Source: Achromobacter xylosoxidans (GTDB taxonomy: Bacteria; Pseudomonadota; Gammaproteobacteria; Burkholderiales; Burkholderiaceae_B). From it: DNA of 64,000 nucleotides. Below the pieces are notes generated by a model that was given only the letters and a program-made list of their open reading frames with translations, had not been told where the DNA came from and made no database searches. Made by a program: the position numbers and the translations under genes. The stretch spans positions 3,410,001 to 3,474,000 of the forward strand of contig NZ_CP061008.1 of NCBI RefSeq assembly GCF_014490035.1, written 5' to 3'. This document shows positions 10,434 through 52,472 of this stretch, in pieces (position 1 is the stretch's first letter; each line of letters begins with the position of its first letter).

Positions 10434-11873
10434 CTAATGGCGGCGGCGCAATTCCGCGGGCGGCATGCGCAATTGCCCGCGGTACTTCGAGACCGTTCGC
10501 CGCGCCAGCAGGATGCCGTTGGCCGCCAGTTGCTGGGTCAAGGCCACATCCGACAGCGGCATCGCCGGGTCCTCGGCCTCGACCATTTCCTTGATCAGGG
10601 CCCGCACGGCCGTGGCGGAGCAGGACCCGCCAGTGTCGGTGGCCAGTTCGCGGGAAAAGAAGTGACGGAATTCGAACACCCCGCGCGGCGTCACCATGTA
10701 CTTGCCGACAGTGGCGCGCGACACCGTGGATTCGTGCATGTCCAGGTCATCGGCGACCTCGCGCAGCATCAAGGGCCGCAAGGCCACGTCGCCATATTCG
10801 AAAAAGGTCTGCTGGCGCTTGACGATGGCTTCGGCCACGCGCTGGATCGTGATGTAGCGCTGTTCGACGTTGCGCACCAGCCAGCGGGCTTCCTGCAGCT
10901 CCTGGGCCATGGGGCTGCGATCGTCCAGGCGGGCGCGCCGGAACAGTTCGGCATAGGTCTGGTGCAGCCTCGCCTGGGGCATGGCGTTGCGGTTGGGCAG
11001 CACGCGCCAGCGCGATTGCCATTTGTCGACGAACACGTCGGGCACGACGTAGACGGGCGCTTCGGCGCTGTAGCGGCCTCCCGGTTTCGGGTCCAGGCTG
11101 CGGATCAGCGCGCAAGCCTCGCGCAAGGCGTCTTCAGAACAGCCCAGCTGCTGGCGCAGGCCGGCGCAGTCGTTGCGGGCCAGCCGCTCGAGCTGCTCGG
11201 CCACGATGCGCATGGACAGGGCGCGTAGCGCGTCGCCGATGCCGGTCGCTGCCGCCAATTGCAGCAACAGGCATTCGGCCAGGTCGCGCGCAGCCAGTCC
11301 AGGCGCATCCAGCTGTTGGACCAGGCGCAGCGCGGTCATCCATTCGCCTTCGTCGGGGACGGCTTCGGCGCCGCGGCGTGCATCGCCCCACAGGCTGGCG
11401 AGCGGCACCCGCAGGTAGCCGTCGTCATCCAGTGCATCGATGATGTACTCCGCCAACAGCCGGTCGCGCGGCGCCAACTGATAGTTGCCCAGCTCCAGCG
11501 ACAGCCGTTGGCTCATGGACAGCGTGGACGCGGCCCATAGGCCCTGGTCACGCTCGGGGCCGTCGCCCTGGCCGCGTGTCGGATAATCGCCGGAGTAGGC
11601 CGGCGCGTCCGGCAGCGGCGGTTCTTCCTGCGGGACGGGTTCCGGCGGAGCCGGATCGGCGCCGTCCGCCAAAGGAGGAAAGACCGCAACGGCGGGGCCT
11701 GCTTCGGCCTCCTGCTCATCGGCGTCTTCCAGGAAGGGATTGCTGGCCAGGGCCTGCTCGACCGCGGTGGTGAACTCCAGGGCGGTCATCTGCAGCAGCT
11801 TGACGGATTGCTGCAGGCGGGGCGCCAGCGTCATCTGCTGACGCAGGCGCAATTCTTGCGAGGGGTAGACCAA
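10434..11873 (-). CDS. rpoN: RNA polymerase sigma-54 factor, RpoN paralogue outside the usual rpoN locus
   Basis: The protein has 479 residues. I choose the TTG at 11873 because AGGAGA sits six bases before it and the product then starts close to region I (ELRLRQQMTLAPRLQQS), as in other RpoN proteins; the ATG at 11912 lies at the predicted transcript start. Region I is followed by an acidic low-complexity region II, the core-binding domain and the C-terminal RpoN box ARRTVSKYRG (canonical ARRTVAKYRE). It directs polymerase to -24/-12 promoters and needs an AAA+ activator. Its neighbours are two such activators, not the lptB/hpf/ptsN genes of the housekeeping rpoN locus, so it is probably a second copy. 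A sigma-54 promoter precedes it, suggesting autoactivation. Confidence 0.92.
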   Translation of the reverse strand: MVYPSQELRLRQQMTLAPRLQQSVKLLQMTALEFTTAVEQALASNPFLEDADEQEAEAGPAVAVFPPLADGADPAPPEPVPQEEPPLPDAPAYSGDYPTRGQGDGPERDQGLWAASTLSMSQRLSLELGNYQLAPRDRLLAEYIIDALDDDGYLRVPLASLWGDARRGAEAVPDEGEWMTALRLVQQLDAPGLAARDLAECLLLQLAAATGIGDALRALSMRIVAEQLERLARNDCAGLRQQLGCSEDALREACALIRSLDPKPGGRYSAEAPVYVVPDVFVDKWQSRWRVLPNRNAMPQARLHQTYAELFRRARLDDRSPMAQELQEARWLVRNVEQRYITIQRVAEAIVKRQQTFFEYGDVALRPLMLREVADDLDMHESTVSRATVGKYMVTPRGVFEFRHFFSRELATDTGGSCSATAVRALIKEMVEAEDPAMPLSDVALTQQLAANGILLARRTVSKYRGQLRMPPAELRRRH

Positions 11874-11923
11874 TCGAGTCTCCTGGACAGCGGCTGCCGA
11901 CGGGCAGCTCATCCTGAAACTCA

Positions 11924-11939
11924 AGCAAAGACCATGCCA
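11924..11939 (-). promoter_or_regulatory. Sigma-54 promoter of rpoN (TGGCATG-N4-TTGCT)
   Basis: On the minus strand TGGCATGGTCTTTGCT matches TGGCACG-N4-TTGCW with one change. The expected transcript start (near 11913) leaves a leader of about 40 bases before the TTG start of rpoN with its strong ribosome site. It implies that the sigma factor drives its own gene. Confidence 0.8.
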
Positions 11940-11961
11940 GGTGCCCCAGCGGGCGGGGGGC

Positions 11962-11986
11962 GGCCGGCGCGCGTGCGGCGCCGGCC
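11962..11986. repeat. Inverted repeat, 9-base arms, upstream of the rpoN promoter
   Basis: GGCCGGCGC and GCGCCGGCC are perfect inverted arms separated by seven bases, 23 bases upstream of the -24 element of the rpoN promoter. It could be an activator-binding site or a transcript hairpin after the upstream activator gene; no T-run follows in the direction of transcription. Confidence 0.4.
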
Positions 11987-12057
11987 CAGTATTACAAGGA
12001 AGCGGTAAGAAATGCTCTCCCGCGCGGTCCGGATGCTCACGTGCCGGCGGGATCCCG

Positions 12058-13047
12058 CTAGTCCTTCTCGTAGTCGTCGAGCCGGTTGTAGAGCGTCTTC
12101 AGACTCAAGCCCAGAGTCTCGGCGGCGCTGCGCTTGTCGCCCGCGTGATGGGCCAGCGTCGCCAGGATGAATGCGCGCTGTGCCTGGCCCAGCGACATGC
12201 CGATGGGCAGCGTCAACGCGCCGTCGCGCAGCATGGCATGCCGCCCGCCGCGGTTCCGCGGCAACAGCTCGTCCTCGAGCTCGCCGTCGGCCAGGATGAA
12301 CGCGCGCTGCACGGCGTTGCGCAGCTCGCGGACATTGCCTGGCCAATCATGCAGGGAGATCGCATCCAGCATCTGCGCAGAGAAGGTCTTCTGCGTACCG
12401 TTGGCGGTGTTCAGGGTATTCAGGAACCAGTGCGCCAGCACCAGCGCATCGTCGCCGCGCTCGCGCAACGGCGGCACGCGCAACGGAATCACCAGCAGCC
12501 GGTGCAGGAAGTCCTGGCGCAGGCGGCCTTGCGCGACGGAGGCGAAGGGATCGCGGTTGCTGGCACAGATGATGCGGACATTGGCGCGCAGCAGGTCCGA
12601 GCCGCCCACGCGCTGATAAGTGCCGGCCTCCAGCACGCGCAGGAAGTTGACCTGCAGGTCCGGCGGCATTTCGGTCACTTCGTCCAGGAACAGCGTGCCG
12701 CCGCTGGCGTACTCGAAGTAGCCGGCGCTCTGTGCCACAGCGCCGGTGAAGCTGCCTTTTTCATGGCCGAACAATTCGGCATGCGCCAGGCTGCCGCTGA
12801 TGGCGCCGCAGTTCACGGCCACAAAGGGCTGTTCCCGGCGTTCGCTGGCGTCGTGGATGGCGCGCGCCACGATTTCCTTGCCCGTGCCGCTTTCGCCCAC
12901 GATGAAGACGCTGGCGTCGGTGGCCGCAGCCAACTGCAGTTGGACGCCGAGCTTTTGCATCACGGGCGACAGGCCCGACGCGTCGGTCAGTACGTCCGGG
13001 GACGCCTGCGCCGGCGCGCGCGCGGCGTTCGGGGTGCGATTCGGCAT
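12058..13047 (-). CDS. Sigma-54-dependent activator without receiver domain (PspF-like layout)
   Basis: The protein has 329 residues from the ATG at 13047, preceded by AGGAAT. It consists of a short N-terminal tail, one AAA+ domain (Walker A GESGTGKE, sigma-contact loop GSFTGA, Walker [13 protein letters not shown], arginine region PPLRERGDD) and a C-terminal Fis-type helix-turn-helix ([15 protein letters not shown]). There is no receiver or other sensory domain, so its activity is probably set by expression or a partner protein, as for PspF. The loop has Ser where GAFTGA has Ala, the same change as in the neighbouring activator. It is upstream of and co-oriented with rpoN (184 bases apart) and is the likely activator of the sigma-54 promoters in this window. 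Confidence 0.9.
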
Positions 13048-13233
13048 GCTGATTCCTGGGTCCTGCACGGACCGTGAACGTCACAACCCATGCTAGTGAA
13101 CTGGACCAGGGCAGGATGCGACGATTTGCAAGTATTCGAAAATCTTGGTGGAAAGTATCGAACATTTACCCCCGGCCCACCTGTAGTCGCTATGCTGAAG
13201 GACTTACAACAACATCCGCGATACGGAGCAAGC

Positions 13234-14604
13234 ATGCCTCATCTGCTGATCGTTGATGACGACCCCACGATACGCGAAACCCTGGCCGAGATCGGACGCG
13301 AAAGCGGTTTTTCCGTGGCCTTGGCAGCGAGCGTCAAGGATGCGCTGATCCAGCTGGAGCGCCATGCGCCCGACTTGGTGTTGACCGACATCCGCCTGCC
13401 CGAGGGCAGCGGCATGGAGATCTTCAAGAGCGAGGCCGCCGCCAGCGCGGAGGTCGTCGTGATGACGGGGCACGGCACCGTCGACAACGCGGTGCAGGCC
13501 TTGCGACTTGGGGCCACCGATTACCTGGTCAAGCCGATCTGCATGGAGCGCTTGAACGGCATCTTCGCGCGAGTGAATGCGAATTCGGGCAGCGAGCTTT
13601 CGGGCGCCCCATTCGAGGAGCCGGGACGCTACGGCAAGATGTACGGCGCGTCGGACTGCATGCAAGAGCTCTATCGGCAGCTCGGCCGCGTGGCCAAGAC
13701 CAATGTGACGACCTTGCTGATCGGCGAAAGCGGCACGGGCAAGGAACTGGCCGCGCACGCCATCCATGAACTCAGCGCGCGCCGCCAGCGGCCGCTGATC
13801 GCGGTGAACTGCGGCGCAATCTCGCCCAACCTGATCGAAAGCGAAATGTTCGGGCACGAGCGCGGCAGCTTTACCGGCGCGGACCGCCAGCACAAGGGCT
13901 ACTTCGAGCGCGCCGACGGCGGCACCCTGTTCCTGGACGAAGTGACCGAAATGCCGCTTGACCTGCAGGTCAAGCTCTTGCGGGTCCTGGAGACCGGGCA
14001 GTTCATGCGCGTGGGCACCAATCGGGAGATCGCCTGCGATATCCGGATCGTCGCCGCGACCAACCGCGATCCCGAGCAAGCAGTGAAGGAAGGCAAACTG
14101 CGCGAGGATCTTTATTACCGGCTGAGCGTCTTCCCCATCAAGTTGCCGGCGCTGCGCGAGCGCGGCGACGACATCCTGTTCCTTGCGAATCGCTTCCTGC
14201 AAGGCTTGAACCAGGAATCCGGCAAGAGCAAGGAATTCTCGCCGCGCGCGCTGGCCGCGCTGCAGCAGTATGCATGGCCGGGGAATGTGCGCGAACTCAA
14301 GAACTACGTGCGCCGCGCCTTCATCATGGCGGACGGCGACACGCTGGAAGTGGACATGCTGACGCCGCGGGTGTCGCCGGCGGGCGAGGGCGGCCAGGTC
14401 AGCGTGCCTGTGGGAGAAACCTTGGCGGAAGCGGACCGCCGCCTGATCCTGGCGACGCTGGAGCGCTGCAACGGCGTGAAAAAGCAGGCCGCGGCGGTAC
14501 TCGGCATCAGCCCCAAGACGCTGTACAACCGGCTCGAGGAGTACGCCGCGGCGGACGCGGAAGGCGCCGCCGCGGCGCCTGGCCGGAAACAGGACCGGCC
14601 CTGA
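13234..14604 (+). CDS. NtrC-family response regulator, sigma-54 activator
   Basis: The protein has 456 residues from the ATG at 13234, with GGAG six bases upstream. The receiver (1-115) has Asp52 in LTDIRLPEG as the phosphorylation site and Lys in DYLVKPI. The AAA+ domain has [14 protein letters not shown] and [12 protein letters not shown]. The Fis-type helix-turn-helix is AAAVLGISPKTLYNRL. The recognition helix is almost identical to that of the receiver-less activator transcribed the other way, so the two probably share binding sites. No kinase is adjacent on this side; the hybrid kinase at 7414 is the nearest candidate. The 186-base space between the two activator genes contains no -24/-12 match, so both are probably transcribed by other sigma factors. 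Confidence 0.92.
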   Translation: MPHLLIVDDDPTIRETLAEIGRESGFSVALAASVKDALIQLERHAPDLVLTDIRLPEGSGMEIFKSEAAASAEVVVMTGHGTVDNAVQALRLGATDYLVKPICMERLNGIFARVNANSGSELSGAPFEEPGRYGKMYGASDCMQELYRQLGRVAKTNVTTLLIGESGTGKELAAHAIHELSARRQRPLIAVNCGAISPNLIESEMFGHERGSFTGADRQHKGYFERADGGTLFLDEVTEMPLDLQVKLLRVLETGQFMRVGTNREIACDIRIVAATNRDPEQAVKEGKLREDLYYRLSVFPIKLPALRERGDDILFLANRFLQGLNQESGKSKEFSPRALAALQQYAWPGNVRELKNYVRRAFIMADGDTLEVDMLTPRVSPAGEGGQVSVPVGETLAEADRRLILATLERCNGVKKQAAAVLGISPKTLYNRLEEYAAADAEGAAAAPGRKQDRP

Positions 14605-14606
14605 CT

Positions 14607-14990
14607 TCATTTGCCGTACCGGGTCTTCAGGTCGGCCATGCACGCGTCCTTGGCGTTGCCGGACATGGCGTCGCACTTCTCCTTGCCAACCTTGTAGTCG
14701 GCGTCGTTGCGCACCTTCGCCGCGTCGTGCGAGGCCTCGGCTTTTTCCTTGCCTGCCTTGGCGTCGGCCCGGGCCTTGTCGCGCGTGGCTTCGGCCTGCT
14801 GCTGGCAGACGTCCTTCTGGTTGCCTTTCATGCCGTCGCAGTGTTTTTTGTCCAGCTTGTACTGGTCATCGATCTGGGCGTTGCTGCGCACGGGGCCGGC
14901 GCTGGTTTGCGCGGTTTGTGCCTGGGCCTGAAACGCCAGGGCGGAAAGGCTCAGGGCGACGGCGGGGAAAACGACTCGGGACAGATTCAT
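14607..14990 (-). CDS. Secreted protein with two Cys-pair repeats, unknown function
   Basis: The protein has 127 residues with a signal peptide (VVFPAVALSLSALAFQAQA) and a mature part of about 100 residues rich in Lys, Ala and Asp. Two copies of a motif, HCDGMKGNQKDVC and KCDAMSGNAKDAC, flank a charged helical stretch (KARADAKAGKEKAEA). The four cysteines suggest one disulphide per repeat in the periplasm. Proteins of this kind are sometimes labelled TolA-like because of the Lys/Ala helix, but there is no real TolA domain. A divergent sigma-54 promoter sits 54 bases upstream of the start. It ends two bases from the response-regulator gene. Confidence 0.75.
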   Translation of the reverse strand: MNLSRVVFPAVALSLSALAFQAQAQTAQTSAGPVRSNAQIDDQYKLDKKHCDGMKGNQKDVCQQQAEATRDKARADAKAGKEKAEASHDAAKVRNDADYKVGKEKCDAMSGNAKDACMADLKTRYGK

Positions 14991-15043: not shown

Positions 15044-15059
15044 AGCAAGCGGCGTTCCC
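15044..15059 (-). promoter_or_regulatory. Sigma-54 promoter of the Cys-repeat protein (GGGAACG-N4-TTGCT)
   Basis: On the minus strand GGGAACGCCGCTTGCT has the exact -24/-12 spacing. The -24 element has one change from GGCACG. The start codon is 54 bases downstream. It is back to back with the promoter at 15069, nine bases away. Confidence 0.75.
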
Positions 15060-15068
15060 GGGCCTGGC

Positions 15069-15084
15069 GGGCACGCCGCTTGCT
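15069..15084 (+). promoter_or_regulatory. Sigma-54 promoter of the 77-residue protein (GGGCACG-N4-TTGCT)
   Basis: GGGCACGCCGCTTGCT matches TGGCACG-N4-TTGCW at every position except the first base. The start codon of the small gene follows 72 bases downstream. It is divergent from the promoter at 15044-15059. Confidence 0.82.
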
Positions 15085-15156: not shown

Positions 15157-15390
15157 ATGCAAACCAAGCGCGCAGATCACGAAAAGGCGGACACGGAGCA
15201 AGGCAAGGCCAATGCGCCGCGCACGCAAACTGAAGCCGCGCATCGCAGCGGCCAGTTCGGGACGGACAAGCCGGACTTCGGCAAGCCGCCCGCGGCGCCC
15301 AAACGCGAGTCGGACAAGAAGCCCAATGACAAGGGCGCCGAGTACGAGGAAGGCGGCCAGTATCCGGGCAAGCGGCCCGGCTCAAAGTAG
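15157..15390 (+). CDS. Small hydrophilic, disordered protein (hydrophilin-like)
   Basis: The protein has 77 residues, almost no hydrophobic side chains, and many Lys, Glu, Asp, Pro and Gly (nine glycines). Segments such as GKPPAAPKRESDKKPND and EEGGQYPGKRPGSK mark it as intrinsically disordered. High glycine with high hydrophilicity is the definition of hydrophilins, proteins linked to water-deficit tolerance; the assignment is by composition only. The gene has a near-consensus sigma-54 promoter, which supports its being real. The ribosome site is weak (CGGGAA). It is convergent with the DUF378 gene. Confidence 0.7.
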   Translation: MQTKRADHEKADTEQGKANAPRTQTEAAHRSGQFGTDKPDFGKPPAAPKRESDKKPNDKGAEYEEGGQYPGKRPGSK

Positions 15391-15405: not shown

Positions 15406-15729
15406 TCAGTCCGCCGCTTGTTCCGGCTGTTCGTCCGCGTTTACGTTCGTCTCTTGTTCGCCCAGCCGGAACAGCAGCACCACGCTGTATAGCGCGGCCA
15501 GTCCGATCAGGCCGTAGACGCCGCGCGTCGCGGCGGCCGACGGCAGCACCTTCGCGAAGACATCCAGGTTCACCGCCGCGATCAGGCCGCAGTTCAGCCC
15601 CCCCGCGACCACCGCGATCAACGCCGACCAGTCCAGGAGGGAGAGGCCGCGGGCCTCGGGAGGAACCGGGGGAGGAGCAGGATCTTCTTCCAGTTCGGAA
15701 AAATCTTCTTGGTTGCCGGGCATGTCCAT
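15406..15729 (-). CDS. DUF378 membrane protein
   Basis: The protein has 107 residues. An acidic proline-rich tail (SELEEDPAPPPVPPEA) precedes two hydrophobic segments that carry the DUF378 pattern: SALIAVVAGGLNCGLIAAVN and then GVYGLIGLAALYSVVLL. It is predicted to be an inner-membrane protein with two helices; the function of the family is unknown. The start at 15729 has AAGGAC ten bases before it. A sigma-54 promoter lies about 90 bases upstream, divergent from that of the next gene. Confidence 0.8.
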   Translation of the reverse strand: MDMPGNQEDFSELEEDPAPPPVPPEARGLSLLDWSALIAVVAGGLNCGLIAAVNLDVFAKVLPSAAATRGVYGLIGLAALYSVVLLFRLGEQETNVNADEQPEQAAD

Positions 15730-15817: not shown

Positions 15818-15833
15818 AGCAACTGCCATGCCC
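15818..15833 (-). promoter_or_regulatory. Sigma-54 promoter of the DUF378 gene (GGGCATG-N4-TTGCT)
   Basis: On the minus strand GGGCATGGCAGTTGCT has the correct spacing and a -24 element GGCATG. It is six bases from the divergent promoter at 15840, so the two -24 elements are almost touching. Confidence 0.78.
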
Positions 15834-15839
15834 GAGAGC

Positions 15840-15855
15840 GGGCACGGCGGTTGCT
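15840..15855 (+). promoter_or_regulatory. Sigma-54 promoter of the 196-residue gene and DUF4142 gene (GGGCACG-N4-TTGCT)
   Basis: GGGCACGGCGGTTGCT is a near-perfect -24/-12 element. The start codon at 15890 follows with a strong GAAGGAGA ribosome site. A perfect GGGAAT-G-ATTCCC palindrome lies just downstream at 15864-15876. Confidence 0.82.
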
Positions 15856-15889: not shown

Positions 15890-16480
15890 ATGTCCCTGAT
15901 CGTTGCCGCCCGTTTCGACACTTTCGACCACGCCGCCGAGGCGGCGCGCAAGCTGTGCGCCGAAGGATTCACCGAAGACGACATCCATACCTTCTACATC
16001 AACACGGCGGGTGAACACGCGCGCTTTCCGATAGGCGGCGACCGCGTGGCCGACCCCGACGCCCGGGGCGGCCATTTCGGCGCGGTGGCGGGCGCTTCCG
16101 CGCTGGGTCTGGTGTTTGCGCTGCTGGGCGGGTTGATCGCCGCCCGGGTCGGGGCTTCGGTCTTGATCGTCATTGCCGCTGCGGGGGTAGGCGCTTATCT
16201 GGGCGCGCTGGCCGGCGCGCTATGGGTGATCGGGCGCGGACGGCGCAGGCATCCGGCGGCGTCCGTCGCCCGTGACGCGCATCCCGCCGTACGCCAGGCG
16301 GGCGTGATGCTGGCGCTGCACATATCACCGGACCGCGATGCGTTGGCAAGAACCGTGCTGACGCAGGCTGGCGGCACGGACATCGAGCGCGCACAGGGCC
16401 GCTGGTTGAATGGCAAATGGGAAGACTTCGACCCCTTGACGCCGCCGCGGCATGTGGAAGCGTCGACGATGGCGAACTAG
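15890..16480 (+). CDS. Membrane protein with glycine-zipper helices, unknown function
   Basis: The protein has 196 residues. The N-terminal 45 residues (VAARFDTFDHAAEAARKLC, FTEDDIHTFY) resemble the ferredoxin-like fold of YflT-type general stress proteins. Two hydrophobic segments rich in small residues follow (GAVAGASALGLVFALLGGLI and ASVLIVIAAAGVGAYLGALA), then a basic linker and a soluble tail ending in HISPDRDALARTVLTQ and GKWEDFDP. I do not recognise the whole protein. It is the first gene after a sigma-54 promoter, with the DUF4142 gene 16 bases downstream in the same transcript. Confidence 0.72.
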   Translation: MSLIVAARFDTFDHAAEAARKLCAEGFTEDDIHTFYINTAGEHARFPIGGDRVADPDARGGHFGAVAGASALGLVFALLGGLIAARVGASVLIVIAAAGVGAYLGALAGALWVIGRGRRRHPAASVARDAHPAVRQAGVMLALHISPDRDALARTVLTQAGGTDIERAQGRWLNGKWEDFDPLTPPRHVEASTMAN

Positions 16481-16496: not shown

Positions 16497-17117
16497 ATGA
16501 AAAAGACCTTATGGCTCTGCGGCGTCGTCGCGCTATGCCTGCTGGCCGCGCCCGGCGTGCTGGGCGGGGTGCAGGCGCAGGAGCTGGCGGAGCCGGAAGC
16601 GCGCTTCCTGCAGGCGGCGGCGGGCTCAGGCATGTTCGAGGTGGAGGCGGCGGAGCTGGCGAAGAAGCTTGCGGGGGACCGCGACGTAAAAGCATACGCC
16701 GCGCGGATGCTGGAGCAGCATGGCGCCATGAACGCCCAGCTGAAGACCCTGGCCGGACGCAAGCAGGTGAAGCTGCCAGCGGAACCGTCCGAACCCGACC
16801 GCGACACCCTGCAACAGCTGGGCAACAGGACAGGCCCCGACTTCGACGCGCTCTATATCGAAAAGGCGGCCGTGGACGCGCATACTACCGCCAACCGCCT
16901 GTTCGAGACGGCTGCGCGCGAGTCCAAGGATCCGCAGGTGCGCGATTTCGCCGTGCGCGCGCTGCCCATGCTGGCCGAGCATCTGGCAATGGGCCGCAAG
17001 CTGCAACGCACGCCGCCCGCCGATGCGGACAAGATCCAGCCGGCAACAAAGGGCGAAGCGCCGGCGGTTTCACCCGCGTCGCGCGAAGCGCCCGCATCGA
17101 TCGCGCCGGCAAAGTAA
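16497..17117 (+). CDS. Exported DUF4142 (ferritin-like) protein
   Basis: The protein has 206 residues from the ATG at 16497 with GGGAG upstream. A signal peptide (VALCLLAAPGVLGGVQAQ) precedes a four-helix DUF4142 domain (about 30-170) with EARFLQAAAGSGMFEVEAAE, AARMLEQHGAMNAQL and KAAVDAHTTANRLFE. The tail is low-complexity and proline-rich. The family is ferritin-like and periplasmic or outer-membrane associated; a metal role is suspected, not shown. Homologues are frequent in bacterial general stress regulons. It follows the 196-residue gene and shares its sigma-54 promoter. Confidence 0.82.
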   Translation: MKKTLWLCGVVALCLLAAPGVLGGVQAQELAEPEARFLQAAAGSGMFEVEAAELAKKLAGDRDVKAYAARMLEQHGAMNAQLKTLAGRKQVKLPAEPSEPDRDTLQQLGNRTGPDFDALYIEKAAVDAHTTANRLFETAARESKDPQVRDFAVRALPMLAEHLAMGRKLQRTPPADADKIQPATKGEAPAVSPASREAPASIAPAK

Positions 17118-17132: not shown

Positions 17133-18020
17133 TCAATCGCCCGCGCTGCCGGTAATGGGCAGGACGATGCCGGTGATGTAGCTGGCGCACACGGGCGAAG
17201 CCAGGAAGACATAGGCCGGAGAGATTTCCTCGGGCTGCGCCGGCCGCCCCAAGTCCGTGTGCTTGCCGAATTCCGTGATTTTCTCCGGACTTTGATCCGC
17301 AGGATTCAGCGGCGTCCATACGGGTCCCGGCGCCACTGCGTTCACACGCACGCCCTTGGCGGCGAGGTTGGCGGCCAGCGATCGCGTAAAGGCATGGATC
17401 GCGCCCTTGGTGGTGGAGTAGTCCAACAGCCTGGCGCTGCCGCGCAGGCCCGTGACCGATCCGGTATTGATGATGGAGGCGCCCGCGCGCAGATGCGGCA
17501 GCGCCGCGCGCGCCATCTGGAAGTAGGCGGTGATATTGGTGCGCAGCGTCTTGTCCCACTTTTCGTCGCTGATCTCGGGCAGCGTGTCCGTGTGCTGCTG
17601 ATAGGCGGCGTTGTTCACCAGGACGTCGAGCTTGCCGTACGCCCGGATCGTCTGTGCCACCGCCTGTTCGCAAAACGCGGGTTCCTGTACGTCGCCTGCG
17701 ATCAGCAGGCAACGGCGGCCTTCGCTTTCCACGGCGCGCTGGGTGTCTTCAGCGTCCTCTTGCTCGTTGAGATAGACGACCGCTACGTCGGCGCCTTCGC
17801 GCGCATACAGCAGGCAGACCGCGCGGCCTATGCCGGAATCGCCGCCTGTCACCAGCGCAACCATGCCCTCGAGCTTGCCGCTGCCCTTGTACTGCGGCGC
17901 CTGGTACTGTGGCTTGAGAACCATGTCGGCTTCCTGCCCCGGCTTTTCCAGGTGCTGGGCCGGCATGGGCGGTTTGGGATGCGGGCGGGCGCCGGTGTCG
18001 GCTTGATCGGGCTTGCTCAT
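17133..18020 (-). CDS. Short-chain dehydrogenase (YghA/YdaD-like)
   Basis: The protein has 295 residues from the ATG at 18020, preceded by GGAGG. After a proline-rich tail of about 50 residues comes a classical SDR fold: cofactor motif VTGGDSGIGRA, NNAAY, catalytic Ser in NTGSVTG and Tyr/Lys in YSTTKG, then VAPGPVWTPLNP. The extended N-terminus and the close match to general-stress SDRs such as YdaD suggest an NADP-dependent aldehyde or ketone reductase; the substrate is unknown. A sigma-54 promoter lies 47 bases upstream. It is convergent with the DUF4142 gene. Confidence 0.88.
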   Translation of the reverse strand: MSKPDQADTGARPHPKPPMPAQHLEKPGQEADMVLKPQYQAPQYKGSGKLEGMVALVTGGDSGIGRAVCLLYAREGADVAVVYLNEQEDAEDTQRAVESEGRRCLLIAGDVQEPAFCEQAVAQTIRAYGKLDVLVNNAAYQQHTDTLPEISDEKWDKTLRTNITAYFQMARAALPHLRAGASIINTGSVTGLRGSARLLDYSTTKGAIHAFTRSLAANLAAKGVRVNAVAPGPVWTPLNPADQSPEKITEFGKHTDLGRPAQPEEISPAYVFLASPVCASYITGIVLPITGSAGD

Positions 18021-18066: not shown

Positions 18067-18082
18067 AGCAAACGCCATGCCT
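18067..18082 (-). promoter_or_regulatory. Sigma-54 promoter of the SDR gene (AGGCATG-N4-TTGCT)
   Basis: On the minus strand AGGCATGGCGTTTGCT has the correct spacing. The predicted transcript start is near 18055, giving a leader of about 35 bases. Confidence 0.78.
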
Positions 18083-18103: not shown

Positions 18104-18445
18104 CTACTGCCGTCCCACCACCACGCCAAAAAGGAAAGCTGCGCCGGCCACCAGGCCGATGGCCTGCCAGGGCCGGGCGTGGATGTACTCCTCGGTGCAG
18201 TCTATGGTCTCGCGCATCAGGTCGCCGGCGTGGTCGGAAGCGTCCCGCAAGCTGCGCCGCGTGGCGTGCAGCTGTTCGGACAGGCGCGCCTTGAGCGCCT
18301 CAAGATCGGTCGCCGAGGCATCGCTGAGCGTGGCTTCCAGATCGTCGATCCAGGCCTCGGGATGCCGTGCTCGCCTGTGCGCGCCGCGGTTGTCCGGGCC
18401 GTTTTCCGGAAAGTCTGAGGGCAGGGGGGTGTTGGTAGAGGCCAT
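18104..18445 (-). CDS. DUF883 family (ElaB/YqjD-like) membrane-anchored protein
   Basis: The protein has 113 residues from the ATG at 18445 with AGGAG upstream. A disordered N-terminus is followed by a helical region (IDDLEATLSDASATDLEALK, LSEQLHATRRSL) and a C-terminal membrane helix RPWQAIGLVAGAAFLFGVVV ending in GRQ, the DUF883 hallmark. Relatives in Escherichia coli tether ribosomes to the inner membrane in stationary phase. It lies 77 bases downstream of the Cys-rich four-helix gene on the same strand and is probably co-transcribed from the sigma-54 promoter at 18883. A second DUF883 protein is at 47919. Confidence 0.82.
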   Translation of the reverse strand: MASTNTPLPSDFPENGPDNRGAHRRARHPEAWIDDLEATLSDASATDLEALKARLSEQLHATRRSLRDASDHAGDLMRETIDCTEEYIHARPWQAIGLVAGAAFLFGVVVGRQ

Positions 18446-18522: not shown

Positions 18523-18852
18523 TCAGGCCTCCAGCATGTCGCGGCAGGCCAGGGTGCAGCTCAGGCACGCGCCTGCGCACACCTGGCAATGCTCTGCCTC
18601 GTGCGATGAGCATTCGCGCGCGCACGCATCGCATATCAATGCGCACAAGGTGCAAAGCGCATTGGCGAACTCGCCGTCGCGTGCCAGCATGGCCGCGCAA
18701 AGCCGGCAAACCGCGCCGCAATCGGTGCACAGCGCAATGCATCGCCGCATGTGCGCCGGGTTCTCGCGCAGGCAGGCGGACGCGCAAACATCGCAGGCGA
18801 CGGCGCATTCATAGCAGGCTTGCACACATTGCTCGAAATTTTGGTCTCGCAT
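18523..18852 (-). CDS. Cys-rich four-helix-bundle copper-binding protein (DUF326)
   Basis: The protein has 109 residues from the ATG at 18852, with AAGGAGA before it. Cysteines recur every few residues along predicted helices: FEQCVQACYECAVACDVCAS, RCIALCTDCGAVCRLC, LCTLCALICDACARECSS, CQVCAGACLSCTLACRDM. This is the pattern of four-helix-bundle copper storage/binding proteins (DUF326, Csp-like). With no signal peptide it should be cytosolic, storing or buffering copper(I). It heads a probable two-gene unit with the DUF883 gene under a sigma-54 promoter only 31 bases upstream. Confidence 0.85.
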   Translation of the reverse strand: MRDQNFEQCVQACYECAVACDVCASACLRENPAHMRRCIALCTDCGAVCRLCAAMLARDGEFANALCTLCALICDACARECSSHEAEHCQVCAGACLSCTLACRDMLEA

Positions 18853-18882: not shown

Positions 18883-18898
18883 AGCAACGGGCATGCCT
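18883..18898 (-). promoter_or_regulatory. Sigma-54 promoter of the Cys-rich protein/DUF883 unit (AGGCATG-N4-TTGCT)
   Basis: On the minus strand AGGCATGCCCGTTGCT has exact -24/-12 spacing. The predicted start near 18871 leaves a leader of about 19 bases that still contains the ribosome site. Confidence 0.78.
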
Positions 18899-19014: not shown

Positions 19015-19266
19015 ATGAAGCCAGCATCCATACCCGGATCCGCGAAGCCGGCGCAAGCCGGCAAGCGGGCGGAAGACAACGCTAAGATACTGCCGCCGCG
19101 CGCTCTCGTCGATGTGCCGCGCAGACCGGATAAACCAGACGCCTCGACCCCGGACGAGGCCGCGCGCGACAAGCGCGTCGTGGCCGACACGCGCACCGAG
19201 TCGAACTGGGCGGACGGTTCCGCGCCGCAACCGCGGGCCAAGAACGCGCGCTCATCGATCCTTTGA
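19015..19266 (+). CDS. Small hydrophilic, disordered protein
   Basis: The predicted protein has 83 residues rich in Ala, Pro, Asp, Arg and Lys with almost no hydrophobic core (KPAQAGKRAEDNAK, RRPDKPDASTPDEAARDKR). A GGAG ribosome site precedes the ATG by six bases. It has no recognised domain. Like the small proteins at 15157, 20447, 26394 and 47666 it looks disordered. It overlaps the end of the topoisomerase gene on the other strand by 15 bases. Existence is supported by position and ribosome site only. Confidence 0.5.
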   Translation: MKPASIPGSAKPAQAGKRAEDNAKILPPRALVDVPRRPDKPDASTPDEAARDKRVVADTRTESNWADGSAPQPRAKNARSSIL

Positions 19267-20361: not shown

Positions 20362-20377
20362 AGCATGCGGCGTGCCC
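20362..20377 (-). promoter_or_regulatory. Sigma-54 promoter of topoisomerase IB (GGGCACG-N4-ATGCT)
   Basis: On the minus strand GGGCACGCCGCATGCT has one change in the -12 element (A for T) and keeps the GC. With the divergent promoter at 20399 it forms a long interrupted inverted repeat from 20358 to 20418, because each promoter is followed by GATG. Confidence 0.7.
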
Positions 20378-20398: not shown

Positions 20399-20414
20399 GG
20401 GCACGCGGCTTGCT
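20399..20414 (+). promoter_or_regulatory. Sigma-54 promoter of the 55-residue gene and DUF3309 gene (GGGCACG-N4-TTGCT)
   Basis: GGGCACGCGGCTTGCT is a near-consensus element. The small gene starts 33 bases downstream. The sequence is almost identical to the promoter at 26333, including GCACGCGG and TTGCTG. Confidence 0.82.
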
Positions 20415-20446: not shown

Positions 20447-20614
20447 ATGCACATCGCGTACTCGTACTACCTGCACGTTCCGCCCAAGCCAGATCCGATC
20501 CCGCCAGGTTCGCCGCCCGGCGACCTGCCTGTTGATCCGGATACCGACGAACCGGACGTGGACCTGCCGCCCTTGTCGCCGCCCGGCAAGGAGATCACGC
20601 CGCCCAGCCCCTGA
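20447..20614 (+). CDS. Small proline/aspartate-rich protein
   Basis: The protein has 55 residues. A short aromatic start (HIAYSYYLHV) is followed by a proline-rich acidic tail (PPKPDPIPPGSPPGD, DTDEPDVDLPPLSPPG). It has no recognised domain and is predicted to be disordered. GGAG sits seven bases before the ATG and a near-consensus sigma-54 promoter lies upstream, which makes a real gene likely. The DUF3309 gene follows 48 bases later and is probably in the same transcript. Confidence 0.65.
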   Translation: MHIAYSYYLHVPPKPDPIPPGSPPGDLPVDPDTDEPDVDLPPLSPPGKEITPPSP

Positions 20615-26332: not shown

Positions 26333-26348
26333 GGGCACGCGGGTTGCT
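26333..26348 (+). promoter_or_regulatory. Sigma-54 promoter of the Gln-rich gene (GGGCACG-N4-TTGCT)
   Basis: GGGCACGCGGGTTGCT is a near-consensus element, 46 bases upstream of the small gene. It is nearly the same sequence as the promoter at 20399. Confidence 0.82.
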
Positions 26349-45742: not shown

Positions 45743-45758
45743 CGCAAGCGCCGTGCCT
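45743..45758 (-). promoter_or_regulatory. Sigma-54 promoter of the glgA-to-treY operon (AGGCACG-N4-TTGCG)
   Basis: On the minus strand AGGCACGGCGCTTGCG has the consensus -24 GGCACG and -12 TTGC. The glgA start is 55 bases downstream. No other promoter-like space exists inside the 19-kb operon, so it may drive all eight genes. Confidence 0.8.
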
Positions 45759-45788: not shown

Positions 45789-45804
45789 GGGAACGGTAAT
45801 TGCT
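45789..45804 (+). promoter_or_regulatory. Sigma-54 promoter of the TPP-enzyme gene (GGGAACG-N4-TTGCT)
   Basis: GGGAACGGTAATTGCT has the exact spacing, with one change in the -24 element. The ATG at 45849 follows with GGAG in between. It is divergent from the glgA promoter, 30 bases apart. Confidence 0.78.
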
Positions 45805-45848: not shown

Positions 45849-47621
45849 ATGAAGACTGTGGCGGACTTTGTGTTGGAACGGCTGTCGCAATGGGGGGTCA
45901 GAAGGATCTACGGCTACCCCGGAGACGGTATCAACGGCCTGATCGGCGCCTTCGGCCGCACCCGTGAGCCGTTGGAGTTCGTCCAGGCCCGCCACGAAGA
46001 AGCCGCGGCGTTCATGGCCTGCGCCCACGCAAAGTTCACCGGGCAGGCCGGGGTCTGCCTGGCGACCTCCGGTCCCGGCGCCATCCATCTGCTGAATGGC
46101 CTGTACGACGCCAAGCTGGACCATCAGCCCGTCGTGGCCCTGGTCGGCCAGCAGGCCCGCAGCGCCCTGGGCGGCGACTACCAGCAGGAAGTCGACCTGA
46201 TCAGCCTGTTCAAGGACGTGGCGCACGATTACGTGCAGATGGCCGCGACCGCCGAACAGGCGCGCCACATGATCGACCGCACCATGCGCATCGCCCTGGA
46301 GCGGCGCAGCGTGACCTGCGTCATTTTTCCAAACGATGTGCAGGATTTGCCGGCGGTGAAGACGCCCGCCCGCGAACATGGGACCGTGCCGACGGGCATA
46401 GGCTTGACCTCGCATGCCGGCGTGCCGGGCGAGGCCGCCTTGCGCAATGCCGCAGACATCCTCAATCGCGGCGAACGGGTCGCCATGCTGGTCGGGGCGG
46501 GCGCGTTGCAGGCCGGCGCGGAAGTGCGCCAGACCGCTGAACTGCTGGGCGCCGGCGTGGCCAAGGCGCTGCTGGGCAAGGCGGCGGTACCCGACAGCCT
46601 GCCGTACGTCACGGGCTGCATCGGATTGTTGGGCACGCAGCCCAGCTGGGACATGATGAACGAGTGCGACACCCTGCTGATGGTGGGCACGTCGTTTCCG
46701 TACTCGGAATTCCTGCCGCCGCCAGGACAGGCGAGGGCGGTGCAGATCGATCTGGACGGCCGCAAGCTCAGCCTGCGCTATCCCGTTGAACTTGGCTTGG
46801 TCGGCGACAGCCGGTTGACCCTGCAGGCCCTGATTCCCTTGTTGCAGCCCAAGACCGCGCGCCGCTGGCGCGAACGCATCGAGGGCAAGGTCGCGCGCTG
46901 GCACGAAACCGTGGAGGCGCGCGCAATGGTGCAGGCCCGGCCGCTGAATCCGCAACGTCCCTTCCTGGAACTGTCCAAACGGCTGCCGCCGCGCAGCATC
47001 CTGACCTGCGACTCGGGCTCGGCGGCGAACTGGTATGCGCGCGACATCGCCATGCGCGAGGGAATGATGGGCTCGGTATCGGGTGGCCTGGCCACCATGG
47101 GCTGCGGCGTGCCTTACGCGCTTGCCGCCAAGCTGGCGCATCCGCAGCGGCCCGTCATTGCGCTGGTCGGAGACGGCGCCATGCAGATGCTGGGCATGAA
47201 CGAGCTGATCACCATCGCCCACCGCTGGAAGGACTGGGCCAACCCGACCTTGATCGTCATGGTCCTGAACAACGGCGACCTCAATCTGGTCACCTGGGAG
47301 CAGCGCGTCATGGGAGGCGACCCCAGGTTCGCGGATTCGCAATGGCTGCCCCGGTTTTCGTACGCGGAGTATGGCCGCCTGCTAGGCCTGGAAGGCATAC
47401 GGGTGGACAGCCCGGACGCCGTGGGAGACGCCTGGGATCAAGCCCTGGCGGCGACCCGTCCGGTCGTGCTGGAAATGGTGACCGACCCCGAGGTGCCACC
47501 CTTGCCGCCGCACATTCCGGCCAAGCAGGTGGCCGCGTACTTCCAGGCGCTGCGCAAGGAAGAGGGCGGCGCGGCAGGCGCGGCCTTGCGCGCGACCATC
47601 AAGCAATGGTGGGCGGGATGA
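45849..47621 (+). CDS. Thiamine-diphosphate enzyme of the pyruvate oxidase/acetolactate synthase family
   Basis: The protein has 590 residues from the ATG at 45849, preceded by GGAG. The PYR domain has the catalytic Glu in RHEEAAAF and GPGAIHLLNGLYDAK, a central domain spans about 190-330, and the PP domain has the TPP motif GDGAMQMLGMNEL ending in VLNNGDLN. It should decarboxylate pyruvate or a similar 2-oxoacid, most like PoxB-type quinone-dependent oxidases that feed electrons to the membrane and yield acetate. FAD use cannot be judged. A sigma-54 promoter lies 45 bases upstream, divergent from the glycogen operon, linking it to carbon overflow in stress. Confidence 0.85.
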   Translation: MKTVADFVLERLSQWGVRRIYGYPGDGINGLIGAFGRTREPLEFVQARHEEAAAFMACAHAKFTGQAGVCLATSGPGAIHLLNGLYDAKLDHQPVVALVGQQARSALGGDYQQEVDLISLFKDVAHDYVQMAATAEQARHMIDRTMRIALERRSVTCVIFPNDVQDLPAVKTPAREHGTVPTGIGLTSHAGVPGEAALRNAADILNRGERVAMLVGAGALQAGAEVRQTAELLGAGVAKALLGKAAVPDSLPYVTGCIGLLGTQPSWDMMNECDTLLMVGTSFPYSEFLPPPGQARAVQIDLDGRKLSLRYPVELGLVGDSRLTLQALIPLLQPKTARRWRERIEGKVARWHETVEARAMVQARPLNPQRPFLELSKRLPPRSILTCDSGSAANWYARDIAMREGMMGSVSGGLATMGCGVPYALAAKLAHPQRPVIALVGDGAMQMLGMNELITIAHRWKDWANPTLIVMVLNNGDLNLVTWEQRVMGGDPRFADSQWLPRFSYAEYGRLLGLEGIRVDSPDAVGDAWDQALAATRPVVLEMVTDPEVPPLPPHIPAKQVAAYFQALRKEEGGAAGAALRATIKQWWAG

Positions 47622-47904: not shown

Positions 47905-47918
47905 CACAAGGAGCACGT

Positions 47919-48257
47919 ATGAACAAGCACCACGGATTGCGGGACATGATTCAACCCGCCGACAACAACACGCGCACGGTGCGCGAACTGATCGCTGGCA
48001 CCGAGGCGCTCTTGCGCAGCACCGCGAGCTATAGCGGTTCCGAGATCGAAGCTGCGCGCGACAGCCTCAAGCAGCAGCTCGAAGCCGCGCGCGAGCACGC
48101 CAAGGGCTGGGAGCGTGCGGCCTGGGAGCGCGCCCGGCATGCTTCCCATGCCGCCGACGAGTACGTCCATGAAAACGCCTGGAAGAGCCTGGCGGGCGCG
48201 GCGCTGATCGGCGTGCTGGCGGGCGTGTGCCTCATGGCCGACCATAAACGCCGCTGA
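47919..48257 (+). CDS. DUF883 family (ElaB/YqjD-like) membrane-anchored protein
   Basis: The protein has 112 residues with CAAGGAG before the ATG. A helical cytoplasmic part (TRTVRELIAGTEALLRSTA, EIEAARDSLKQQLEAAREHA) leads to VHENAWKSLAGAALIGVLAG, the DUF883 membrane anchor, and a basic end. It is a better match to the ElaB/YqjD pattern than the paralogue at 18104. The role suggested by the family is anchoring ribosomes at the membrane in slow growth. It follows the small proline-rich gene and may share the sigma-54 transcript from 45789. Confidence 0.85.
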   Translation: MNKHHGLRDMIQPADNNTRTVRELIAGTEALLRSTASYSGSEIEAARDSLKQQLEAAREHAKGWERAAWERARHASHAADEYVHENAWKSLAGAALIGVLAGVCLMADHKRR

Positions 48258-48339
48258 GCGCCTAATCCTTTTTGCCCATTGATAGGGCGGGGCGTTTCCA
48301 GGACCATGCTCGGATTGCGCCGCAACACCGGAATCCACG

Positions 48340-50470: not shown

Positions 50471-51660
50471 GCCGACTCCTGTTGCGCCTGGATAGGCAGC
50501 GACTTCAGGCGGGGCTTGTGCGCGGGCAGGCTGCCGGCCCAGGCGGGAAAGCGCCGCAGGAAATGGAATACCACCACGCCGATCCACAGCCGCCGCAAGC
50601 GCCGCCTGGACCCCTCGGGCAGCTCGATGCGCCGGCAATCCTGTTCGATGAGCCGGTCAAGGCTGCGGCGCAGCGCGGCGTTCAAACCGGCGTCGCGCGC
50701 CACCACGTTGGCTTCCAGATTGAGCGCCAGGCTGAGCGGGTCCAGATTGCTGGATCCGATGGTGCTCCAGTCTCGGTCCACGCAGGCAACCTTGCCGTGC
50801 AGCGGGCGCTTGCAGTACTCGTAGATCTCCACGCCCGCATCGATCAGGTAGTCATACAGCATGGACGCCGCCAGGCGGGCGACCAGCACATCGGGTTCGC
50901 CTTGCAGCAGCAGCCGCACGCGCACGCCGCGACGGGCGGCGTTGGCCAGGTCGTGCAGCAACTGATATCCGGGGAAGAAATAGGCGTTGGCGATCAGCAC
51001 GTCCTCGCGCGCGGCGCGCACGCCGGCCCGGTAGTAGCGTTCGATGTCCGTCTGATGCTCGATGTTGTCGCGCACCACCAGGCGGCCGCCGCCGTCGCCT
51101 TCCGGCATGGGATCCATGCGCGCCGGCCGCCGCCGCTTGCGGGTCCACGCGTCCACCGCTAGCGCCTCGCGCGCGAAGTCCGCGACGTCCGCGGCCAGCG
51201 GGCCTTCCAGCCGCACCGCATAGTCCTGCTTGGCTTGCGGCCCGTAGTCGGGCAGGTGGTCGGCGGAAAGATTGATACCCCCGACAAAGGCGACCCGGCG
51301 GTCGACCGCCACGATCTTGCGGTGCATGCGCCTGAACACATTGGTGCGCACGCCGAGCAAGCGCGGACGCGGATCGAATACATGCACACGGATGCCGCTT
51401 TCGGTCATGGCGCCGACGAAGGCGCCGTCCAGCTCGTCCGAGCCATAGCCGTCCACCGTCAGGTCCACGCTGACGCCGCGATGGGCGGCGGCGATCAGGG
51501 CGCGCTGGAACTCCTGCCCCACGGCGTCGTCGAACAGGATGAAGGTTTCCACCAGCACTTCGCCGCGCGCCGCGGCAATCGCATCGAGCACGGCCGGAAA
51601 ATACCCGGTGCCATTCTCCAGCAGCGTGTAGCGGTTGTTCTCGCGCCAGCGCAGGTTCAT
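50467..51660 (-). CDS. clsB: Cardiolipin synthase B
   Basis: The protein has 397 residues and no N-terminal membrane anchor, as in ClsB. It has two phospholipase-D motifs: H113-x-K115-x4-D120 in MHRKIVAVDRRVAFVGG and H288-x-K290-x4-D295 in LHGKVACVDRDWSTIGSSN. ClsB joins phosphatidylglycerol with another phospholipid or an alcohol to form cardiolipin or phosphatidylglycerol. The start overlaps the upstream nuclease-family gene stop by ATGA, and the stop overlaps ybhN, so the three genes are translationally coupled. Confidence 0.92.
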   Translation of the reverse strand: MNLRWRENNRYTLLENGTGYFPAVLDAIAAARGEVLVETFILFDDAVGQEFQRALIAAAHRGVSVDLTVDGYGSDELDGAFVGAMTESGIRVHVFDPRPRLLGVRTNVFRRMHRKIVAVDRRVAFVGGINLSADHLPDYGPQAKQDYAVRLEGPLAADVADFAREALAVDAWTRKRRRPARMDPMPEGDGGGRLVVRDNIEHQTDIERYYRAGVRAAREDVLIANAYFFPGYQLLHDLANAARRGVRVRLLLQGEPDVLVARLAASMLYDYLIDAGVEIYEYCKRPLHGKVACVDRDWSTIGSSNLDPLSLALNLEANVVARDAGLNAALRRSLDRLIEQDCRRIELPEGSRRRLRRLWIGVVVFHFLRRFPAWAGSLPAHKPRLKSLPIQAQQESA

Positions 51661-52424
51661 AGCGCGATCTCCGCGCAGATCGGCACATGGTCGGACAGGC
51701 GCGACCAGATCCGCGAGGCCAGCGGCACCGGCTGCCAGTCCCGGACGTTGCGCACGTAGATGCGGTCCAGCCGCAACAAGGGCCAGCGCGCGGGAAACGT
51801 GCGGGCGGGGCGGCCCAGGCGCGACGTGTAGACCTCGCGCGTGCCGCAATCCCGCATCAGCGAGTCGGCGCGCAGGCGCCAGTCGTTGAAGTCGCCTGCG
51901 ATCAGCAGCGGTTCGCTGGCGGGCACGCCTTGCGCCACCAGTTCGCACAGGCGGCGCAACTGCTTGCCCCGGTGGCCTTCCAGCAGGCCCAGGTGCACGC
52001 ATATCGCATGCACCGGCGTATCCAGCGAGGGCACCCGCAGCACGCAGTGCAGGAGTCCGCGGCCCTCATGCCCATGCACGGTGACGTCATGGTTTTCGTG
52101 GCGTTCGATGGGATATCTCGACAGGAGCGCATTGCCATGGTGTCCCGCCGGGTAGACCGCGTTGCGGCCGTAGGCGAAATCGGTCCACAGCGAGTCCGCC
52201 AGGAATTCGTACTGGGACAGGGCAGGCCAGGCCTGATGCCGTTCGGCGTGCCCCTGGTGTTCTCCCAGCACTTCCTGCAGGAACACGATGTCGGGACTCG
52301 CCATCCGCAAGGCTTCGCGCAGTTCGTGCAGCATGAAGCGGCGGTTGAAGCTGGTGAAACCCTTGTGCGTGTTCACGGTCAGCACGGTCAGCGTGGTGGC
52401 ATCGATGTAGCGGAAGGAGGGCAT
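51657..52424 (-). CDS. ybhP: Endonuclease/exonuclease/phosphatase family protein (YbhP-like)
   Basis: The protein has 255 residues from the ATG at 52424, preceded by GGAG. The EEP fold is shown by TVNTHKGF, IVFLQEVLGEH (metal-binding Glu), IAGDFNDWR and RLSDHVPICAEI. EEP enzymes cleave phosphodiesters in nucleic acids or lipids; next to clsB a lipid or head-group substrate is likely, but unproved. It is the first gene of the ybhP-clsB-ybhN operon, and a sigma-54 promoter lies 33 bases upstream of its start. Confidence 0.85.
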   Translation of the reverse strand: MPSFRYIDATTLTVLTVNTHKGFTSFNRRFMLHELREALRMASPDIVFLQEVLGEHQGHAERHQAWPALSQYEFLADSLWTDFAYGRNAVYPAGHHGNALLSRYPIERHENHDVTVHGHEGRGLLHCVLRVPSLDTPVHAICVHLGLLEGHRGKQLRRLCELVAQGVPASEPLLIAGDFNDWRLRADSLMRDCGTREVYTSRLGRPARTFPARWPLLRLDRIYVRNVRDWQPVPLASRIWSRLSDHVPICAEIAL

Positions 52425-52456
52425 GGACGCTCCGGATGGGTCGATCCGGACAGCGG

Positions 52457-52472
52457 AGCAATCCGCGTTCCC
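52457..52472 (-). promoter_or_regulatory. Sigma-54 promoter of the ybhP-clsB-ybhN operon (GGGAACG-N4-TTGCT)
   Basis: On the minus strand GGGAACGCGGATTGCT has exact spacing and the same -24 variant (GGAACG) as the promoters at 15044 and 45789. The predicted start is near 52446, giving a leader of about 20 bases. Confidence 0.78.

Follow-up and report, generated by a model that had tools for sequence, protein, structure and literature searches.

A Second Sigma-54 Factor as the Probable General-Stress Sigma Factor of Achromobacter, with a Predicted Promoter Class of Its Own

Introduction

RpoS and EcfG, whose regulons include genes for glycogen and trehalose metabolism and for Ku, entericidin, BON, and DUF883 proteins, are sigma-70-type factors and do not require an ATPase activator. 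A gene set resembling these regulons is considered here for RpoN2, a second sigma-54 of Achromobacter xylosoxidans; the candidate factor thus differs from RpoS and EcfG in being of the sigma-54 type. The gene rpoN2 lies in a 64,000-nucleotide stretch of the genome, referred to below as the window, for which the original prediction described a local stress regulon made up of an rpoN paralogue, two activators, and thirteen -24/-12 promoters. Sequence comparison makes it probable that RpoN2 serves Achromobacter as general-stress sigma factor, with a promoter dialect of its own, and that the housekeeping RpoN (RpoN1) switches it on.

The closest described systems are found in species with several sigma-54 copies. 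Rhodobacter (Cereibacter) sphaeroides contains non-interchangeable paralogues, RpoN1 to RpoN4, of which those studied each have their own activator and gene set, RpoN3 working with the activator AprX (PMC11999139). The promoters of Rhodobacter RpoN1 and RpoN2 differ at position -11 (PMC11999139, PMC4676750). Like Rhodobacter, Achromobacter has a second sigma-54 copy; its promoters, split by a base, and its two linked candidate activators may extend the likeness. The systems differ in that in Rhodobacter the split occurs at -11 and the sets are nif genes, flagellar genes, or one regulator gene, whereas in Achromobacter the base concerned is the first of the -24 element and the gene set is of the stress type. 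A 2011 survey took its promoter predictions to apply also to species with several sigma-54 copies, since the differences then known were single bases at -11 or -12 (PMC3162934).

In Ralstonia solanacearum, RpoN2 (Rsp1671) is encoded close to the activators Rsp1667 and Rsp1668, marked by the motif GSFTGA, and rpoN2 itself is listed with an RpoN promoter; a contribution of this RpoN2 to virulence or metabolism was not observed (PMC4676750). Likened by description, Ralstonia and Achromobacter share an rpoN2 near two GSFTGA activators and an RpoN promoter on rpoN2. In Burkholderia pseudomallei, katE expression is seen from 48 to 72 hours in the wild type and is not detected in the rpoN2 mutant (PMC4745423). 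Burkholderia also has RpoS (PMC4745423, PMC12322963), whereas none scores over the cut-off in the family of Achromobacter. A relay between sigma factors is described for Borrelia, in which the Rrp2-RpoN-RpoS pathway uses sigma-54 to switch on a second sigma factor that runs a regulon (PMC2940757); there the second factor is RpoS, while in Achromobacter it would be another sigma-54. Among the titles listed for open-licence articles in PubMed Central, with subscription journals outside the scope, none concerns stress genes of Achromobacter or Bordetella under a sigma-54 paralogue, and no article pairing RpoN2 with Achromobacter was found.

Sequences and Search Rules

The genome consists of a single contig of 6.76 Mb. 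The window covers its bases 3,410,001-3,474,000, or 0.95% of the total, and has 68% G+C; feature positions below are counted within the window. Two promoter patterns were used: the R-class pattern RGGMAYGN4TTGCT, with G or A as first base, and the T-class pattern TGGMAYGN4TTGCW, with T as first base. The same pattern read backwards served as the control for site counts. The comparison included 150 relative genomes, of which 43 belong to the genus, 48 to the rest of the family (91 family genomes in total), and 59 lie outside the family. A genome was taken to contain rpoN2 when its best match reached at least 54% identity and at least 452 bits; all matches at this level were among those listed. 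Promoter alignments were built from loci L033-L064 together with the window, using matches that begin within the first six residues of the protein and sites at most 170 bases away; the site finder is blind to the base preceding GG, and the rows of the alignments are related to one another. For glgA, the set consisted of 34 loci, namely the best 30 glgA matches and four further loci. The rpoN2 loci of other genera are L185-L204 (n=20).

Two Promoter Classes and the RpoN2 Protein

The first base of the -24 element sets the promoters of the proposed regulon apart from that of rpoN2. Across the 105 aligned rows of eight regulon promoters, 85 have G at this position, 16 have A, 3 have C, and a single one has T, whereas among the 31 aligned rows of the rpoN2 promoter 24 have T, 4 have A, and 3 have G (Fisher p 2e-19; rows related). 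The canonical base is T, as in the published sigma-54 consensus TGGCACG-N4-TTGC (PMC4676750). The ends of the sites are distributed differently as well: regulon rows end in TTGCT (95) or TTGCG (10), and rpoN2 rows in TTGCA (17), TTGCT (10), or TTGCG (4). In the other genera, the rpoN2 promoter was found in 17 of the 20 loci and is T-first in all 17. In the window it is the T-class site TGGCATGGTCTTTGCT (11924..11939, minus strand). The original prediction had treated its thirteen sites as one set. Twelve of them do belong to one class, and the rpoN2 site differs by keeping the canonical first T; a single promoter class for all thirteen is ruled out by the first-base split. The T-class promoter of rpoN2 is likely read by the housekeeping RpoN, and the R-class dialect, RGG[C/A]A[C/T]G-N4-TTGCT, is predicted to be read poorly by it.

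The gene rpoN2 itself (10434..11873, minus strand) has its called start, TTG, at 11873. The Pfam models for the activator-interacting, core-binding, and DNA-binding domains (AID, CBD, DBD) all score over the cut-off. The genome contains two sigma-54 genes, whose products are 43% identical, and the closest named relatives of RpoN2, from A. xylosoxidans, A. aegrifaciens, and A. insolitus, show 89-90% identity. The RpoN box, held to meet the -24 element (PMC3162934), reads ARRTVAKYRE in RpoN1 of the same genome. In the RpoN2 proteins of Achromobacter, Bordetella, and loci L185-L204 it reads ARRTV[S/T]KYR, with G, A, T, S, or D in place of the final E; L063 is an exception in which the Ala of the box is kept. 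Given the role ascribed to the box, its change and that of the first promoter base fit each other, and a contact between the RpoN2 box and the altered first base can be inferred.

Region I of RpoN2 aligns, and the residue matching R336 of the Escherichia coli protein is Arg. Changes of R336 in E. coli bypass activators. As region I and the aligned Arg are retained, RpoN2 is expected to be activator-dependent, and the idea of an activator-bypass form was set aside. In a quick tree without bootstrap, the RpoN2 proteins form one clade (59 rows, SH-aLRT 100), and Burkholderia RpoN2-like proteins are sister to the RpoN2 group of the family, the membership of the B. pseudomallei protein in that clade being assumed. 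Few of the 10-kb flanks around Burkholderia rpoN2 contain the promoter motif.

Distribution of RpoN2 and of R-Class Sites

The gene rpoN2 is present in 41 of the 43 genus genomes and in 22 of the 48 other family genomes; this distribution and the clade shared with Burkholderia make it look old. The number of R-class sites follows its presence. Genus genomes with rpoN2 have a median of 23 R-class sites (13-42). Two genus genomes are without the gene: G007, which is complete, has 4 R-class and 17 T-class sites, and G033, which is 57% complete, has 7 R-class sites. In the other family genomes, the median R-class count is 13 with rpoN2 (n=22) and 2.5 without it (n=26). Per Mb, the values are 3.18 and 1.13 (one-sided p 2.9e-6; p 7.4e-6 when genomes below 2.5 Mb are dropped), p-values that ignore kinship and are to that extent open to objection. 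T-class counts do not follow RpoN2 in the same 48 genomes (8 with versus 7.5 without, p 0.85), and the reversed-pattern control gives 3 versus 1 (p 0.06). In other families, the median is 3 R-class sites per genome, and no genome has more than 10.

These counts bear on the strongest of the alternative explanations, according to which R-class sites are ordinary sigma-54 promoters open to either RpoN, stress specificity comes from the local response regulator and activator, and RpoN2 merely adds dose or acts as an antagonist. The R-class motif is still a good -24/-12 match. Moreover, the RpoN2 proteins of Ralstonia and B. pseudomallei each restore some functions of an E. coli rpoN mutant (PMC4676750, PMC4745423), and an antagonist role has been suggested for Ralstonia RpoN2 (PMC4676750). 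This explanation, however, predicts that R-class counts should not track RpoN2 while T-class counts stay flat, that there should be no first-base split, and that the RpoN box should be unchanged; nor was an activator site common to the regulon promoters found in the 21 promoters searched. It is therefore considered unlikely. A dedicated stress sigma factor with its own promoter class agrees better with the distribution.

Conservation of individual promoters points in the same direction. A G- or A-first site precedes glgA in all 34 loci of the set (30 from Achromobacter including the window, two from Bordetella, L195, and L197), with 6 full matches, 22 with one change, and 6 with two. In Bordetella genomosp. 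5 (L060, 7063-14013) and genomosp. 1 (L062, 7086-14016), the response regulator, the activator, rpoN2, and the glgA operon adjoin, and the glgA operon carries an R-class site, a layout that amounts to a more compact version of the window. Close to rpoN2 in other genera, R-class sites stand before genes for GlgA, DUF883, BON, glycine-zipper 2TM, and Ysc84 proteins, as well as an SDR gene and a methyltransferase gene (10 of 21 proteins scanned). The original prediction expected its sites to be conserved in close relatives. Most are kept, and those before the DUF326 (18883) and DUF378 (15818) genes are conserved weakly.

RpoS, at the TIGR02394 cut-off, was detected in none of the 91 family genomes, compared with 29 of the 59 genomes from other families of the order.

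Sites across the Genome and the Genes behind Them

Of the 46 genomic sites with the first-base-blind pattern GGMAYGN4TTGCT, 11 lie in the window. Exact R-class sites number 25 genome-wide (reversed control 5), with 10 in the window and 15 outside. All 10 sites in the window and 10 of the 15 outside lie between called genes. A further outside site (L001) lies 31 bases before the start of an entericidin gene, under a doubtful called open reading frame (ORF), and the remaining four fall inside ORFs. The regulon described in the original prediction is consequently local only in part: 10 of the 25 exact sites are in the window, and 11 of the 15 located elsewhere are placed before genes. Its expectation that the motif would be commoner between genes than inside them is borne out, with 20 of the 25 R-class sites and 18 of the 26 T-class sites outside the window being intergenic.

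The genes behind the outside R-class sites (nine of the 11 were scanned; L015 and L121 were left out) encode entericidin, Ku, SodC, a PRC-barrel protein, a low-affinity iron permease, a CDP-alcohol transferase, an AlgH-like protein, a lone receiver, and one protein without a Pfam family. In the window, the profile scans identified DUF378, DUF4142, SDR, DUF883, DUF326, topoisomerase IB, and DUF3309 proteins, followed by a glycogen/trehalose run (GlgA, GlgE, TreS, GlgB, GlgX, TreZ, MalQ, TreY), and then by a thiamine pyrophosphate (TPP) enzyme and by ClsB with its neighbours. The gene families named in the original prediction were present wherever scanned.

T-class sites number 27 genome-wide, and the only one in the window is that of rpoN2 itself. 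Ten of the 18 intergenic T-class genes were scanned and point to nitrogen and transport functions; their products include glutamine synthetase, P-II, four solute-binding proteins, and an aldehyde dehydrogenase, besides three others. The genome encodes 11 strong sigma-54 activators, and six of the nine outside the window lie at most 3.2 kb from a T-class site.

A second alternative treats the clustered sites as a stress island carrying its own regulator and transferred or inherited in one piece, with R-class sites elsewhere being unrelated. The absence of the block from G007 would agree with this view, as would the gene content around rpoN2, which differs among genera. The 15 exact R-class sites outside the window, 11 of them before genes, and the wide and apparently old distribution of rpoN2 argue against it, and the island explanation is regarded as improbable. 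The placement of stress genes under an enhancer-dependent sigma factor encoded nearby, as originally predicted, is instead supported by the sequence comparison, with two amendments: the promoters fall into two classes, and the regulon would reach beyond the window.

Kinase, Activators, and the Palindrome before rpoN2

Three regulatory genes lie near rpoN2. Convergent with it is a gene for a hybrid histidine kinase with GAF, PAS, HisKA, HATPase, and receiver domains by Pfam (7414..10422, plus strand). A hybrid kinase is found near rpoN2 in 29 of 32 loci, including one at 39%, and is absent from both Bordetella loci; its role in the circuit is inferred. The second gene encodes an AAA+ sigma-54 activator with a Fis-type helix-turn-helix (HTH) and no receiver domain (12058..13047, minus strand), and the third, divergent from it, an NtrC-type response regulator (13234..14604, plus strand). 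As the original prediction had it, the rpoN paralogue is accompanied by two activators, and all three proteins carry the expected Pfam domains. GSFTGA is present in both activators and in 84 of 88 related stretches of relatives; among the nine further strong activators encoded in the genome, six have GAFTGA and three do not match the motif pattern. Since the HTH ends of the two activators, GISPKTLYNRLEEY and GLSLKTLYNRLDDY, are nearly alike, both may bind one site.

A candidate for such a site is the palindrome TTACCGCTTCCTTGTAA (11992..12008, minus strand), a putative enhancer of rpoN2. It is the single match to TTACCN8GTAA in the genome, compared with 20 for the reversed control. The form TTAC-N9-GTAA is exact before rpoN2 in 25 of 31 rows, including Bordetella L060 and L062, and the distance between palindrome and promoter is 67-71 bases in 28 of 31 rows. 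A composite pattern of palindrome and promoter was found in 27 of the 43 genus genomes, each time beside rpoN2; the one other match is in G086. The idea that the palindrome marks the whole family is rejected, its exact form being seen in only 2 of the 20 other-genus loci (L195 and L202).

The search for a shared enhancer in the regulon covered 21 promoters: 12 from the window and, of the 11 outside sites placed before genes, all but L004 and L012. TTAC-N9-GTAA occurs in none of the 21, although a degenerate or distant site may exist. None of the gapped palindromes, 6-8-mers, or profile hits to the rpoN2 palindrome exceeded the level of shuffles: the best gapped palindrome is present in 6 of the 21 promoters, a number reached by 11 of 100 shuffles, and the best profile score is 8.6 (at L116; reached by 4 of 100 shuffles), compared with 26.4 at rpoN2.

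Proposed Mechanism and Its Weighing

In the proposed mechanism, a signal would be passed, perhaps through the kinase, to the NtrC-type response regulator, and this protein, the receiver-less activator, or both would bind the palindrome. The bound activator would then switch on rpoN2 through RpoN1. RpoN2, together with the GSFTGA activators, would transcribe genes for glycogen and trehalose metabolism, the envelope, DNA protection, and the oxidative stress response from R-class promoters, at which the activator would act from solution or from a degenerate site. The whole would constitute a cascade from one sigma-54 to another, in a family without detected RpoS. As the enhancer was seen at none of the 21 regulon promoters, regulon output would be set by the amount of RpoN2. 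A more specific version, which is advanced only tentatively, is that sigma-54 here acts in bulk: the sole enhancer would be that at rpoN2, with none at the regulon promoters, dozens of genes would be controlled through the supply of RpoN2 and its partner activator instead of through DNA looping at individual promoters, and the first-base code would keep the two programmes apart.

If correct, the proposal would mean that sigma-54, thought of as a machine controlled promoter by promoter through enhancers, can serve as a general stress factor, and that RpoN2 does the job that RpoS does elsewhere, in a family in which RpoS was not detected. It would also suggest a definite function for RpoN2 in Ralstonia and Burkholderia, on which the cited papers give either no phenotype or a single target. 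The proposed one-base promoter code could be tested by a single substitution.

Several observations weigh against the reading of RpoN2 as the general-stress factor. Regarding the promoters, most glgA sites, including that of the window, end in TTGCG (27 of 34); the rpoN2 promoter is G- or A-first in 7 of the 31 rows (six Achromobacter loci and L063); and the exact palindrome was not seen in 18 of the 20 other-genus loci. Regarding the gene sets, the AlgH-like (L004) and receiver (L012) proteins are not typical stress proteins, the protein at L116 is without a Pfam family, and behind the T-class site L114 lies the gene for a small Pro-rich protein resembling those behind R-class sites, an exception to the class split. 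Regarding the distribution, most of the stress island is gone from G007, where no glgA match was found either; lost genes thus account for part of the low R-class count. Genomes G050, G079, and G089 carry rpoN2 yet have 4 R-class sites each, and a protein of the wider RpoN2 clade also occurs in G128, which is not in the family and has 1 R-class site. Conversely, the family member G047 has 11 R-class matches (control 6) with no RpoN among the matches listed, from which it follows that the R-class pattern alone is not proof. Finally, 26 of the 48 other family genomes lack both RpoN2 and RpoS, and replacement of RpoS by RpoN2 is therefore not obligatory.

In the search of other-genus loci, no recognisable rpoN2 promoter was found in G050 and G089. 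G- or A-first rpoN2 promoters were noted in the Achromobacter loci L052, L053, L055, L056, L057, and L058, and also in L061. Such a promoter would allow autoregulation in those loci, and could represent a switch towards it.

The Individual Sites of the Window

The window contains 11 exact GGMAYGN4TTGCT sites, compared with a mean of 0.22 and a maximum of 3 in dinucleotide shuffles. That the sites are chance or composition-driven intergenic matches, with the stress genes run by another factor, is very improbable even in a window with 68% G+C and with a partly G+C-rich motif, as none of 100 shuffles reaches the observed count, the backwards control gives 9 genome-wide matches versus 46, and the sites hold their position in orthologues. 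A search with RGGMAYGN4TTGCT at one mismatch yielded 14 matches, recovering all thirteen originally predicted sites in place and adding one at 24086. The two predicted sites said to carry one change are those at 20362 (ATGCT) and 45743 (TTGCG). The sites had also been described as intergenic and facing the adjacent gene, which, on the called-gene map, is true of all 10 exact R-class sites.

The glgA-glgE-treS-glgB-glgX-treZ-malQ-treY operon, running from 45688 down to 26688, has its putative R-class promoter, kept before glgA, at 45743..45758 (minus strand). Divergent from it is the site of the TPP enzyme gene 45849-47621 (45789..45804, plus strand), and the ybhP-clsB-ybhN-like genes 52424-49439, named by scan, have theirs at 52457..52472 (minus strand); both sites, together with that of the gene 26394-26573 for a Gln-rich 59-residue protein (26333..26348, plus strand), come from the one-mismatch search.

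The remaining sites are concentrated between 15044 and 20414. The site of the gene 14607-14990 for a 127-residue protein (15044..15059, minus strand) is present in 26 of 26 rows, 24 of them strictly R-class, and that of the gene 15157-15390 for a 77-residue protein (15069..15084, plus strand) in 9 of 11. The DUF378 gene 15406-15729 has its site at 15818..15833 (minus strand; 12 of 21 loci), and the gene 15890-16480 with the DUF4142 gene 16497-17117 at 15840..15855 (plus strand; 18 of 25 loci). The site of the SDR gene 17133-18020 (18067..18082, minus strand) occurs in 17 of 17 rows, 12 of them strict, while the site before the DUF326 (18523-18852) and DUF883 (18104-18445) genes (18883..18898, minus strand) is found in 2 of 15 rows including the window itself. 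For the topoisomerase IB gene 19252-20322, which has the one-change site at 20362..20377 (minus strand), a full site lies at most 110 bases upstream in 9 of 18 loci, a count that omits two further hits located away from the gene. The gene 20447-20614 and the DUF3309 gene 20663-20815 share the site at 20399..20414 (plus strand; 14 of 18 loci); in the alignment for gene 20447, the site is present in 13 of 17 rows, all 13 strict.

A second DUF883 gene (47919-48257) has no R-class site before it within one mismatch, and a site like that of Bordetella L060, where the DUF883 gene near the TPP enzyme carries one, is thus ruled out at this level. The additional match at 24086-24101 (plus strand) is a one-change R-class match located inside a FUSC-like gene, in antisense orientation, and is probably due to chance. 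In two places of the window, 15044-15084 and 15818-15855, sigma-54 sites are arranged in back-to-back pairs with their -24 ends only 6-9 bases apart, so that a single spot serves two divergent genes. A third pair of this kind lies elsewhere in the genome (2006904-2006944 in genome coordinates), and one of its two sites is C-first.

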